Assembly: GCA_937924525.1 (NCBI GenBank)
Contig: CALDSU010000005.1
Coordinates: 372,001-436,000, forward strand
Direction: 5' to 3'
Length of the DNA stretch: 64,000 nt
Origin: an uncultured Bryobacteraceae bacterium
GTDB lineage: Bacteria > Acidobacteriota > Terriglobia > Bryobacterales > Bryobacteraceae
In this document: positions 55,724 through 58,905 of the stretch, piece after piece
Layout: each line of letters begins with the position of its first letter
Numbering within the stretch: the first letter of the stretch is position 1
Translations under genes and position numbers: made by a program
The notes under the pieces: generated by a model
Databases searched by the model: none
What the model saw: the letters and a program-made list of their open reading frames with translations, nothing else
What the model was told of the DNA's origin: nothing

Positions 55724-57100
55724 ATGTTCCGATTGGATGCTGACAAAGCGGTTCATTTCTGCGATGGTCTGCGGCGGCGGGATTTCTTCCACGCCGGTAC
55801 GCTCTCTCTGCTGGGCCTGGGACTACCCGAGTGGTTCGGCTGGAAGGCTCGCGGGGCGGTCGACCGCTCCAAGGACGTCAACTGCATTCTCCTGTTTCTC
55901 GTGGGCGGTCCCTCCCAACTCGACACCTGGGACATGAAGCCCAACGCGCCTATCGAGATCCGCGGCCCCTATCGTCCGATCAAGACCAACGTCGCCGGCG
56001 TGGAAATCTCCGAGAACTTCCCGCGGATGGCAAAGCATGCGGACAAATACGCCATCGTCCGCAGCGTCCACCATACGGCGGCCGCCGTTCATGACACGGG
56101 CCACCAGATGATGCAGACCGGCCGCTTGTTCCAGGGCGGCATCGAGCATCCCCATATCGGCTGCGTGTTATCGAAACTCAAAGGCCCGCAGGGTGACGTC
56201 CCGGCGCACGTCCTGCTGCCTCGTCCCATTGGCAACACGGGGGGAAACATGCCCCACGGCCAGAGCGCGGGCTACCTCGGCAAGACGCACGACCCGTTTG
56301 TCCTGAACGCCGATCCGTCTGACCCCAACTTCCGCGTGCCCGATATGTTCCCTTCGGAGTATCTCTCCGCCCTGCGCGTGGACCGCCACAAGAACTGGCG
56401 CGAGCTGGTCGACCGTACCGTCAGCCGGTTTGAGACTTCCCCGGACGCCCGTCTGCTCGATTCTACTTTCCATCAGGCGTACACGCTCATGTCTTCTCAG
56501 AAGGCGCGCGACGCTTTCGAGTTGTCCCGCGAGCCCGAAGCCGTCCGTGAGAACTATGGCTTGAACCGTTTCGGCCAGAGCTGTCTCCTCGCCCGTCGGA
56601 TGATCGAGGCGGGAGTGCGTTTCGTCACCATCAACATGTTCGAGACGGTGTTTGATGAAATCACCTGGGACGTCCACGGCTCGAAGCCCTTTAGCCCGCT
56701 TTCGTGCTACCGCGACCTGGTCGGCCCCATGTTTGACCACGCCTACAGCTCGTTGCTGGAAGACCTGCACAATCGCGGACTCCTTGGCAACACGCTGGTC
56801 GTCGCCACGGGCGAGTTCGGCCGTACTCCTAAGGTCAACCCGGCGGGCGGGCGCGATCACTGGCCGCAGTGCTGGTCGATGCTCATGGCCGGAGGTGGAG
56901 TCCAGGGCGGCCAGGTCATCGGCTCTTCCGATGACATCGGCGCCATGCCCAAAGACCGTCCCGTCACGCCCAGCGAGGTGGCGGCGACGATCTATCATGC
57001 GCTGGGTATCCCGCTCGACCATGAACTGCCGGGCGCGCAGGGCCGGCCCATCCGCGTCGTCGATCACGGAACCGAGCCGGTTCGTGAACTGTTTGTCTGA
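55724..57100 (+). CDS. DUF1501 protein (Tat-exported)
   Basis: The 458-residue protein is a DUF1501 family member. Its N-terminus contains a twin-arginine region (Arg-Arg-Arg-Asp-Phe-Phe) followed by a hydrophobic stretch, then the Asn-Cys-Ile-Leu-Leu-Phe-Leu-Val-Gly-Gly-Pro-Ser-Gln-Leu-Asp-Thr-Trp-Asp motif. It also shows Arg-Ser-Val-His-His-Thr, Thr-Gly-His-Gln-Met-Met-Gln-Thr-Gly and Val-Ala-Thr-Gly-Glu-Phe-Gly-Arg-Thr-Pro, which belong to the alkaline-phosphatase-like fold. In Planctomycetota and Acidobacteriota it is usually followed by a DUF1549/DUF1553 or PPC-domain gene. Here that neighbour survives only as a fragment. Ribosome site AAGGAG precedes the start. Confidence 0.85.
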   Translation: MFRLDADKAVHFCDGLRRRDFFHAGTLSLLGLGLPEWFGWKARGAVDRSKDVNCILLFLVGGPSQLDTWDMKPNAPIEIRGPYRPIKTNVAGVEISENFPRMAKHADKYAIVRSVHHTAAAVHDTGHQMMQTGRLFQGGIEHPHIGCVLSKLKGPQGDVPAHVLLPRPIGNTGGNMPHGQSAGYLGKTHDPFVLNADPSDPNFRVPDMFPSEYLSALRVDRHKNWRELVDRTVSRFETSPDARLLDSTFHQAYTLMSSQKARDAFELSREPEAVRENYGLNRFGQSCLLARRMIEAGVRFVTINMFETVFDEITWDVHGSKPFSPLSCYRDLVGPMFDHAYSSLLEDLHNRGLLGNTLVVATGEFGRTPKVNPAGGRDHWPQCWSMLMAGGGVQGGQVIGSSDDIGAMPKDRPVTPSEVAATIYHALGIPLDHELPGAQGRPIRVVDHGTEPVRELFV

Positions 57101-57120
57101 AGCTCTCTCGAAAGCGCCGA

Positions 57121-57540
57121 CGCCAACGCTCTGGGTCTGTTTTCGCGGACGGGATCAACGCGAATCGACAGATTCCGGGTCTCCGGCTCTATTTACCCAC
57201 CGGTTTCGCCGTGGGAGACTTCGTGCCGATCGGGGAGGAAATTGTCCGGGTCGAGGCCATGCCTCGCACTCCGGATGACGACTTCCGTTTTGAACAGTTC
57301 GGCGGCCGCCGGCTGGGCTTTTTCGACACCACCCCGGAAGCCCGCGCGGTGGATTCGTCCACCTGCAAAGTCCAGATCCTCCCCGCCGGAGCGCGGCCCG
57401 CGCCCAATGGCCTTCCCCTTGTGCGCCTGACGTTCCGCAACGACGATGCGGGTCCGGGGAATGGAAACGACTCCCGCCTGCGCTTCACCGCCCCCGCCGA
57501 CGGCGAGTATCTTGTCCGGTTGAACGATGTTCGCGACTGG
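57121..57540 (+). pseudogene. Fragment of a PPC-domain (pre-peptidase C-terminal) protein
   Basis: On the plus strand, just after DUF1501, an open stretch encodes Leu-Arg-Leu-Tyr-Leu-Pro-Thr-Gly-Phe, Gly-Phe-Phe-Asp-Thr-Thr-Pro-Glu-Ala-Arg-Ala-Val, Asn-Gly-Leu-Pro-Leu-Val-Arg-Leu and Ala-Pro-Ala-Asp-Gly-Glu-Tyr-Leu-Val-Arg-Leu-Asn-Asp-Val-Arg-Asp. This matches the PPC region of planctomycete/Solibacter secreted proteins that neighbour DUF1501 genes. There is neither a start with signal peptide nor the usual continuation; coding-like third-position GC ends near 57540, where an opposite-strand gene begins to make sense. It is therefore a truncated remnant, cut at both ends. Confidence 0.6.
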
Positions 57541-58503
57541 TCGGGAGGCCACTGCCTCTTCCACCAAACGCCGGGCCGTTGCGTAGCGGACCTGCCGGCT
57601 CAGGCGACTGAGTTGCGCGACCGCCTCCGGACCCGAGATGGCCGCCAGCACGTGCACGCAGGCATGGCCTGCTATCTGCGACACCGCCCCATGGTTCGGA
57701 ATCTTCCTCAGGCATTGCTCGGCAAAGCCAGCGATCACCCCGCACAGCTCGCCGTCCGCGCACTCGGGCAGGAACCACAAGAGCCCGCGCTGCACGCCCG
57801 CCTCCTCCGGGGTAATTTGAATCCCCGGTTCGCCAGCCGCAGGCCCCATAAGCAGCCAGCGGCGCACGATCGCCCGGAACGCTTCCCGCCCGATTGCCGC
57901 GACCAGCGCCGCCGAGGTATCCCGCCACTTCCGGGAAGGCTCGGCTTCCGCCAGCGCAGTCGCCTGCTGAATCACGCTCGTCCACGCAGCCTGGTTCGGC
58001 AACCTGCTGATTTCTTCGTAGACGTTCCGGGTCCAAGGACCGAGCGCCTGCAACTCCGGTTTGGAAACTCCCCTGGCGCGCTCCAGCAGTTCATCGATCC
58101 GGCGGATCAGGGCCCGCGCCTCCGCGTACATCTCCCACTCGACCAAGGCGGACCGCAAGACGCCGCAGGCGTCCGTCATTCCAGGCGCCTCCAGCCGCCC
58201 TTCCGCCAGACGCAGCACGGCGGCCACGGGCGACATCTCGTACGGAATTCCCGCGCTGAGACGCACCAACTCCGCCTCCTCTTCATCCCGCCACGGCAAG
58301 CGCCGGCGCAGCATCCGGCCGGCCGCCGCGCCGGCGCGCAGACACTCGAGGACAAACGACTTCTGAAGCTCCGCGTCGGCCTTCTGGAATGCCGCCGCGG
58401 ATTGCTCCCCGATCTCTCCGAGTTGGTCGAACGAAACCTGCTGCGCCCTGGCGGAAAGCTGCTCCACCACCGCGCGGATTTCATCAAGGCCTGTTACTTC
58501 CAC
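57193..58503 (-). CDS. Truncated DUF4132/MolR-like protein
   Basis: The first 320 of 436 residues look genuine: helical repeats with Asp-Glu-Ile-Arg-Ala-Val-Val, Arg-Trp-Leu-Leu-Met-Gly-Pro, Gly-Leu-Leu-Trp-Phe-Leu-Pro-Glu and Ala-Val-Ala-Gln-Leu-Ser-Arg-Leu-Ser-Arg-Gln-Val-Arg-Tyr-Ala-Thr-Ala-Arg-Arg-Leu, as in the HEAT-like front half of DUF4132 (MolR/YehI-type) proteins, which usually exceed 1,000 residues. After about residue 320 (near 57540) the sequence is just the antisense of the PPC fragment. The gene has therefore lost its C-terminal half, including the DUF4132 domain proper. The start is GTG 58503, six bases after the GG-ending small protein gene. It is probably non-functional. Confidence 0.5.
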   Translation of the reverse strand: MEVTGLDEIRAVVEQLSARAQQVSFDQLGEIGEQSAAAFQKADAELQKSFVLECLRAGAAAGRMLRRRLPWRDEEEAELVRLSAGIPYEMSPVAAVLRLAEGRLEAPGMTDACGVLRSALVEWEMYAEARALIRRIDELLERARGVSKPELQALGPWTRNVYEEISRLPNQAAWTSVIQQATALAEAEPSRKWRDTSAALVAAIGREAFRAIVRRWLLMGPAAGEPGIQITPEEAGVQRGLLWFLPECADGELCGVIAGFAEQCLRKIPNHGAVSQIAGHACVHVLAAISGPEAVAQLSRLSRQVRYATARRLVEEAVASRPVANIVQPDKILAVGGGGEAQAGVVSIPRTRIVVAERQAHKGKAIGRGPRSGGEDLDFAGGRIHRAGFRGGVEKAQPAAAELFKTEVVIRSARHGLDPDNFLPDRHEVSHGETGG

Positions 58504-58509
58504 CGGTGC

Positions 58510-58905
58510 TTAACCCCCGATTAGCGGAACCAACCTCAGAAAGGTAATCTCACTGCCCGACGCGACCTCCACGGGTTCCTCGAGCGCCAGCGCCTGCCGC
58601 TCGCCAAGCAGCAGGATCACCCGCTGGGCTTGAAACGCCTGGCAGGCCCTCCGGAATTGCTCTTCAACGTCCAAGGGCGGCTGGTTTAGCGATCGCTCGC
58701 CGTTCAGCAAGCGTTCCTTCTCGTCCCGCTCGACCAGGACGGGAGCGGCCACGGCCGGCGACGCCTGGACGCGGGCCGCCTCCTGCTCCACGCACCGGCG
58801 GATCAGCTCGCGAACCGTGGGCGGCGCGGGCTCCAACCACATCTCGAAAGCTGGGCCCCGGGCGCGCCCGGGGATCTCGTCACGTACGCGCACCATGACG
58901 GCCAT
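58510..58905 (-). CDS. Beta-grasp-like small protein ending in Gly-Gly
   Basis: This 131-residue protein begins with two strands (Met-Val-Arg-Val-Arg-Asp-Glu-Ile and Phe-Glu-Met-Trp-Leu), then helix Val-Arg-Glu-Leu-Ile-Arg-Arg, a variable insertion, and ends Val-Ala-Ser-Gly-Ser-Glu-Ile-Thr-Phe-Leu-Arg-Leu-Val-Pro-Leu-Ile-Gly130-Gly131. The final strand with Gly-x-Glu-Ile-x-Phe ... Pro-Leu-x-Gly-Gly strongly resembles MoaD, ThiS and ubiquitin-like proteins, whose C-terminal GG is adenylated and conjugated or thiocarboxylated. Similar short proteins occur beside DUF4132 genes in other bacteria. No E1-like, E2-like or JAB gene is in the window. The fold is inferred from pattern, not alignment. 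ATG 58905 is the start. Confidence 0.5.
   Translation of the reverse strand: MAVMVRVRDEIPGRARGPAFEMWLEPAPPTVRELIRRCVEQEAARVQASPAVAAPVLVERDEKERLLNGERSLNQPPLDVEEQFRRACQAFQAQRVILLLGERQALALEEPVEVASGSEITFLRLVPLIGG

Follow-up and report, generated by a model that had tools for sequence, protein, structure and literature searches.

Operons for the conjugation of ubiquitin-like proteins (Ubls) carry genes for E1, E2 and/or JAB proteins (PMC1779556, PMC13373217). DUF4132 (YehI/MolR) proteins are a long-standing family of unknown function. The names "MolR" and "YehI" were absent from the main text of PMC1779556 and PMC7159879, and a literature search found neither DUF4132 together with "ubiquitin-like" nor DUF5724 or DUF7737. 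The closest described case is DR_A0165 of Deinococcus radiodurans, published as a peptide encoded by a small ORF, in the context of oxidative stress, and judged to occur in Deinococcus only. In the cited parts of that report, DR_A0165 rises with H2O2 and irradiation, its deletion leads to higher H2O2 resistance, sensitivity is increased in the complemented strain, which overexpresses it, the product binds thioredoxin Trx1 (encoded by the neighboring gene), and its predicted structure is similar to MOCS2 and SAMP1, i.e., MoaD-like (PMC9650054). A set of 157 proteins copurified with DR_A0165, from N- and C-terminally tagged forms; the same parts of the report make no mention of its GG end, a pairing with DUF4132, or a wider family (PMC9650054). 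Elsewhere, DRA0165-DRA0166 is given as a putative DdrO-controlled operon, with the DRA0166 protein increasing after mitomycin C and not in an irrE mutant (PMC8533742, cited parts). On the site upstream of DR_A0165 the cited parts of the two sources differ, a DdrO site being reported in PMC8533742 and stated to be lacking in PMC9650054.

The window, i.e., the whole stretch of 64,000 nt that was analyzed, contains on the reverse strand (58510 to 58905) an ORF of 131 codons that starts with ATG, stops with TAA, and encodes a predicted Ubl with a helical insert and a C-terminal Gly-Gly (ORF, family profile, homologues, AlphaFold, and Foldseek/VIA). Its C-terminal sequence is GSEITFLRLVPLIGG, the two terminal glycine codons (58513 to 58518, reverse strand, read from the sequence) lying immediately 5' of the stop codon. 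The AlphaFold model, built on a 50-row alignment (mean pLDDT, 81.8; pTM, 0.77), had the beta-grasp topology beta-beta-alpha-beta-beta, with strands at residues 3 to 10, 19 to 24, 96 to 100, and 119 to 124, a helix at 31 to 48, and a helical insert at 62 to 92; the part around residues 50 to 70 was poorly ordered. The GG tail had a pLDDT of <50, as expected of a flexible tail. The first Foldseek matches were Ubl domains, MoaD, NEDD8, ubiquitin, SUMO, and the Ras-binding part of PI3K chains, the best E value being 0.011 and none <0.001, so the fold likeness is remote. With VIA, the model aligned to MOCS2 (5mpo_B; Z, 8.2; 3.6 A; 80 aligned residues) and ubiquitin (4nnj_B; Z, 7.5; 2.3 A; 75 aligned residues), with the highest Z values (8.4 to 8.6) for one chain in U11 snRNP structures; these values are moderate, yet most rows were ubiquitin-like. 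A sequence search of the PDB with the Ubl returned no match. By its model, the window protein is thus a predicted ubiquitin-like beta-grasp protein, and the original prediction, which had read beta-grasp-like strands, a helical insertion in the middle, and a Gly-Gly end from the 131-residue ORF, was borne out on each of these points, including the superposition on MoaD (here MOCS2) and ubiquitin that it had proposed.

Relatives of the Ubl were sought in several collections. A single-sequence search gave matches in 6 of 101 genomes, a 5-row profile in 14 of the 237 genomes from the window's taxonomic family, and a 12-row profile in 3 of 396 genomes of a phylum sample (the window's own genome included each time), the last count indicating that the gene is sparse. 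The single-sequence match in genome G042 was set aside because it runs across a stop codon and looks unrelated. When 84,980 species were searched, 293 stretches matched the pattern; 170 of them encoded relatives, and 80 of these loci were kept for analysis. Recurrence on the scale of the family and species searches goes far beyond chance. The 80 loci belong to Acidobacteria, actinomycetes, cyanobacteria, Bacteroidetes, Planctomycetes, Verrucomicrobia, Chloroflexi, Chthonomonas/Capsulimonas, and proteobacteria; the actinomycete loci include Streptomyces, Nonomuraea, Actinomadura, and Micromonospora, and Deinococcus sequences were added separately from the 80. The Ubl belonged to no Pfam family (12 members compared) or NCBIfam family (5 members compared), matched no PHROG below an E value of 0.1, and had no match to PF02597 (ThiS/MoaD) at E values up to 5 or 1; the four PF02597 matches of the host genome lie elsewhere and do not include it, and hhalign gave its profile a probability of 3.6% against a ThiS/MoaD profile of 14 relatives. 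PADLOC gave no match for six proteins, a plasmid search with the window protein gave none, and 45 pattern matches in viral contigs contained no relative. In phages, DUF4132 had no match at 1e-3; one DUF4132 protein had a PHROG match at an E value of 5e-9. With members in at least nine bacterial phyla, this is a new, unnamed, and widespread family of predicted ubiquitin-like proteins.

The original prediction had named conservation of the terminal GG among homologues as a test. Of 100 distinct members that end at a stop codon (the window's included), 95 had exactly this end, and five were exceptions. In the first set of 89 such sequences, among which are the window protein and two partial sequences, 87 ended in GG, the exceptions ending in GGIR (L003) and AGSYW (L103). 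Eleven further sequences (four from Deinococcus, one each from Novosphingobium and B. finegoldii, and five from genomes of another class of the window's phylum) comprised eight with GG and three ending in AGNY, AGSFW, and SGRLW. Apart from GGIR, then, the tails without GG were of the form AG-x-aromatic or SGRLW, and the four members that carry them look like one branch. Members of this branch were observed in the window's phylum (L145, L146, and L147) and in B. finegoldii (L133:419-838). Two of its loci (L128 and L133) adjoin genes for DUF5724-DUF4132-DUF7737 proteins, a partner type that also pairs with GG-ending Ubls (L127 and L129). The aromatic-tailed Ubls are possibly trimmed precursors or a noncovalent form. 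Members of the family differ in the codons used for the two glycines and for the stop and in the spacing to the next gene; GG is therefore not a by-product of gene overlap and appears to be kept by selection on the protein.

A same-strand DUF4132 gene was adjacent to the Ubl in 71 of 80 loci (directly downstream in 60, upstream in 12), partner identity being assigned by ORF homology clusters and checked against Pfam in a subset. The partners scanned carry PF13569, and full-length ones also a C-terminal DUF7737; in one (L034), the first frame stops after PF13569. At the nine other loci, the DUF4132 gene was adjacent and divergent (L040), near the Ubl (L065 and L084, with tandem Ubl copies intervening in L065), or reduced to a remnant (L095); the Ubl lay at a contig end in L022 and L078, and no DUF4132 gene was present at the locus in L047, L082, and L091. 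The tandem copies, two full and one partial, stand ahead of the DUF4132 gene in a Verrucomicrobiia genome (L065:8396-11245). Three consecutive DUF4132-cluster genes follow the Ubl in Hymenobacter (L088:10469-18434), and in Actinomadura (L061, L079, L094, L096, L099, and L100) the usual order is reversed, two tandem DUF4132-cluster genes preceding the Ubl. By ORF clustering, any third gene family was limited to at most 18 of the 80 loci. Ten hand-picked neighboring proteins (a cytochrome, an acetyltransferase, two methyltransferases, a glycosyltransferase, an AAA/STAND-like ATPase, LepA, a 2-oxoacid dehydrogenase subunit, and two proteins that matched no family) and protein kinases near the Ubl in L029 and L071 share no theme.

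Among the 237 family genomes, DUF4132 was found in 16, DUF7737 in 14, and the Ubl in 14; Ubl and DUF7737 occurred together in 13 and each alone in 1 (Fisher test, P = 2e-19). The genome with the Ubl alone (G031) had no detected DUF4132, and its Ubl follows genes for a MoxR-like ATPase and a vWA protein (L126:2024-5200) that are not close to E. coli YehL/YehP; in the genome with DUF7737 alone (G048), the contig start cuts the DUF7737 gene. No Ubl was found near the DUF4132 genes of two genomes without DUF7737 (G066 and G145), and E. coli YehI and a WGR-bearing Allorhizobium protein had neither DUF7737 nor a Ubl at the locus. An exception is Acetobacter, where DUF4132-DUF7737 is present with no recognizable Ubl adjoining. 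Divergence of Ubl and partner was correlated (r = 0.81 over 56 pairs; ≤0.25 in 1,000 permutations), a value to which shared species history contributes and which may reflect coevolution, shared descent, or both. Sequence similarity, synteny, and co-occurrence together show that the Ubl and the DUF4132-DUF7737 protein form a two-gene module. The statement in the original prediction that similar small proteins lie beside DUF4132 genes elsewhere thus held as a recurrent link, but for the DUF7737-ending type of DUF4132 only.

The model of one partner (L026; 767 amino acids; pLDDT, 90.8) consisted of an alpha-solenoid (residues 1 to 341) and a mixed alpha/beta half (342 to 767), and 50 of the 51 positions invariant among 44 Ubl-locus sequences fell in the latter. 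A DUF7737 block (G697, Y702, H705, G707, S708, P734, D754, and D759 in L026 numbering) was kept in at least 43 of the 44 Ubl-locus proteins and in five of five further DUF7737 proteins. Among eight proteins without detected DUF7737 (six by Pfam, that of G145 by a DUF7737 search, and that of Rhodococcus only by the end of its profile match), the block was unaligned in seven, and the eighth retained H705 and P734 only. Eight other residues (W441, H479, P480, P503, Q506, R509, W547, and E621) were kept in all eight, which suggests a core common to both DUF4132 types; in the D. radiodurans partner, two of these positions are changed (W441 to F and E621 to Q). On this pattern, the common core would have an enzymatic role, and DUF7737 would be the part that deals with the Ubl. 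In a fold search with DUF4132, nearly all matches listed fell on the solenoid half (1 to 341), which the search in effect covers, and no solved enzyme fold matched; a PDB sequence search gave seven chains with E values of 0.03 or worse, mostly designed helical proteins.

In the window, the gene that begins 6 nt past the Ubl stop is a 3'-truncated DUF4132-like gene (57193 to 58503, reverse strand; 436-codon ORF; tblastn). It matched residues 61 to 384 of an 817-amino-acid DUF4132 protein (tblastn E value, 3e-41), the homology covering the N-terminal part and ending at about 57442. PF13569 and DUF7737 are lost, so the gene is truncated and has no Pfam match, and its description as a broken DUF4132-like neighbor proved accurate. 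Behind a DUF1501 gene (55724 to 57097), a gene remnant (window 57101-57530) meets the truncated gene tail to tail; the convergent fragment on the forward strand (57211 to 57530, ends approximate) has a weak PPC-domain match (Pfam E value, 2e-4, below the curated cutoff). The simplest reading would be a deletion that removed the 3' ends of two convergent genes, and the junction may alternatively stem from misassembly. An intact DUF4132-DUF7737 paralogue lies 430 kb from the window gene, at about 861.9 to 864.5 kb of contig C5 (L124:5921-8488), and is the genome's only DUF7737 match. Since this 862-kb copy is complete and not the missing half, inversion or translocation was rejected as the cause of the break. 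The paralogue adjoins a large gene, presumably dnaE, and no Ubl stands next to it.

Because the adjacent partner is broken, the window Ubl would either serve the paralogue in trans or be a relic that is being lost after deletion of its partner. The relic reading, which is compatible with any mechanism and counted apart from them, is on the unlikely side: it fits the truncated neighbor and the divergence of the window copy from other members, for example, at the NGF motif, against which stand the intact Ubl ORF with its GG end and the intact paralogue as the sole DUF7737 match.

No ThiF-type E1 was found in the window, as the original prediction had said of activating enzymes. The search for E1 and JAB genes elsewhere in the host genome, which it had suggested, revealed two ThiF-type E1s on contigs other than that of the Ubl, one a ThiS-ThiF-rhodanese fusion adjoining a JAB gene and a PALP-family gene and the other a stand-alone ThiF-type protein. 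PF00899 E1-like proteins were present in all 16 Ubl genomes tested, at 45 places, of which 3 (two in G217 and one in G541) were on the Ubl's contig and all more than 300 kb away. E1s were also present in 11 of 14 control genomes and are nearly universal, which makes their presence a weak test. Across 82 loci, tblastn at 1e-4 found no gene similar to the host's two E1s and no match to one JAB query, a search that reaches close relatives only.

The reading to which we tentatively give most weight, at roughly 45%, is that the Ubl acts as a carrier or modifier and that the DUF4132-DUF7737 partner makes use of the Ubl's GG tail, with the E1 supplied in trans. The module would then operate in the manner of the MoaD-MoaE and ThiS-ThiG pairs. 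A general ThiF/MoeB-type E1 from another locus would adenylate the flexible GG tail, the activated tail (thiocarboxylate or adenylate) would enter the conserved C-terminal half of the partner, which would use it or hand it on, and the N-terminal alpha-solenoid would bind the substrate. In this genome, the partner served in trans would be the intact paralogue (C5:861.9-864.5 kb), unless the Ubl is the relic described above. The beta-grasp fold with its disordered tail, GG in 95 of 100 members, the adjacency to DUF4132 in 71 of 80 loci, the co-occurrence with DUF7737 and its conserved block, and a ThiF-type E1 elsewhere in 16 of 16 Ubl genomes all point to a carrier or modifier, as do the MOCS2/SAMP1-like prediction and the Trx1 binding of the D. 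radiodurans member in the cited parts of PMC9650054. Against it stand the E1-positive controls (11 of 14), the lack of a ThiS/MoaD match of the profile, the changed W441 and E621 in D. radiodurans, the Acetobacter locus, the single GGIR copy, and the AGSYW, AGNY, AGSFW, or SGRLW ends of one branch. That branch, which lacks the second glycine, is a real countersignal to a GG-dependent mechanism. The modification or conjugation system envisaged in the original prediction was accordingly upheld in its fold, its conserved GG, and its DUF4132 link but not in the function of the GG itself, given the lack of a nearby E1, the branch without the second glycine, and the missing profile link to ThiS/MoaD. 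It is rather unlikely, though conceivable on the same evidence, that DUF4132-DUF7737 proteins would constitute a new class of Ubl-dependent transferase or ligase, with the dedicated Ubl as their only specific partner and a housekeeping E1 borrowed.

The main rival, which we consider possible if somewhat doubtful, is that the Ubl is a noncovalent regulatory or structural subunit, with the GG tail lodged in a groove on the partner's surface, so that activation would not be needed. The recurrent pairing with one partner, the lack of an activating enzyme nearby, the correlated divergence (r = 0.81 over 56 pairs, shared species history contributing), and the retention of a DUF5724-DUF4132-DUF7737 partner by the aromatic-tailed branch (L128 and L133) are consistent with such a subunit, against which stands the conservation of GG as the exact last residues across at least nine phyla. 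A GG held right up to the stop is characteristic of tails with a functional carboxylate, and a docking peptide rarely requires an exact end.

Attachment of the GG tail to many cytosolic proteins, with the DUF4132-DUF7737 protein as a ligase of a new type or an E1-like enzyme, is improbable: the Ubl fold with a free GG, the many invariant polar residues of the partner, and the stress induction and 157 copurifying proteins in D. radiodurans (PMC9650054, cited parts) are in keeping with it, but those proteins copurified with the N-terminally and the C-terminally tagged form alike, and the C-terminal tag covers GG, so they do not demonstrate conjugation, and there was no E1 near the Ubl (16 genomes), no JAB relative (82 loci), and no solved enzyme fold matching the partner in a search that effectively covered its solenoid half.

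DR_A0165 (SEP068184) is by profile a member of the Ubl family (E value, 2e-21), ends in RLTALAGG, and lies upstream of DR_A0166, which encodes a DUF5724-DUF4132-DUF7737 protein; on this similarity, it belongs to a family wider than Deinococcus. A DdrO-type/RDRM-like site, GGTTATGCTATTTACATAAC, was observed upstream of DR_A0165 (L129:1734-1862). When 79 of the 80 loci were searched for LexA or RDRM-like boxes upstream of the Ubl gene, there was one match for the Gram-positive box (0.35 expected), one for a second pattern (0.23 expected), and none for three others. These counts therefore do not support DNA damage control as a general feature of the Ubl.

The Ubl and the DUF4132-DUF7737 protein suggest an unrecognized two-part bacterial system. 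The original observation was correct, and its reach is wider than first described; a GG-dependent mechanism is what we infer. A dedicated GG-tailed Ubl partner gives a direct handle on the DUF4132 family and divides it into two types, and the isolated Deinococcus phenotype of DR_A0165 becomes a case of a widespread module that is accessible in harmless, genetically tractable bacteria. If a new Ubl-dependent enzyme class is real, at least nine bacterial phyla would share a minimal ubiquitin-like system of two genes, with a use in stress physiology in Deinococcus.

Compared with known systems, the module shares with Bil, Bub, and the types 6a to 6e operons of Iyer 2006 a small beta-grasp protein, often glycine-ended, and, unlike them, its loci have no E1 (16 genomes and 82 loci) or JAB relative (82 loci). 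YehI/MolR-type DUF4132 proteins have the PF13569 core in common with the Ubl partners, whereas their operons carry MoxR or DUF5682, vWA, and SWIM genes and have neither DUF7737 nor a Ubl (E. coli and Allorhizobium). To ThiS/MoaD (PF02597) with ThiF/MoeB, ThiG, and MoaE, the Ubl is alike in its beta-grasp fold, flexible GG, and carrier-plus-partner logic; unlike them, it has a helical insert, and its partner has no MoaE or ThiG domain. Closest is DR_A0165/DR_A0166 of D. radiodurans, with the same Ubl family and the same pairing and with a partner of the longer DUF5724 type.
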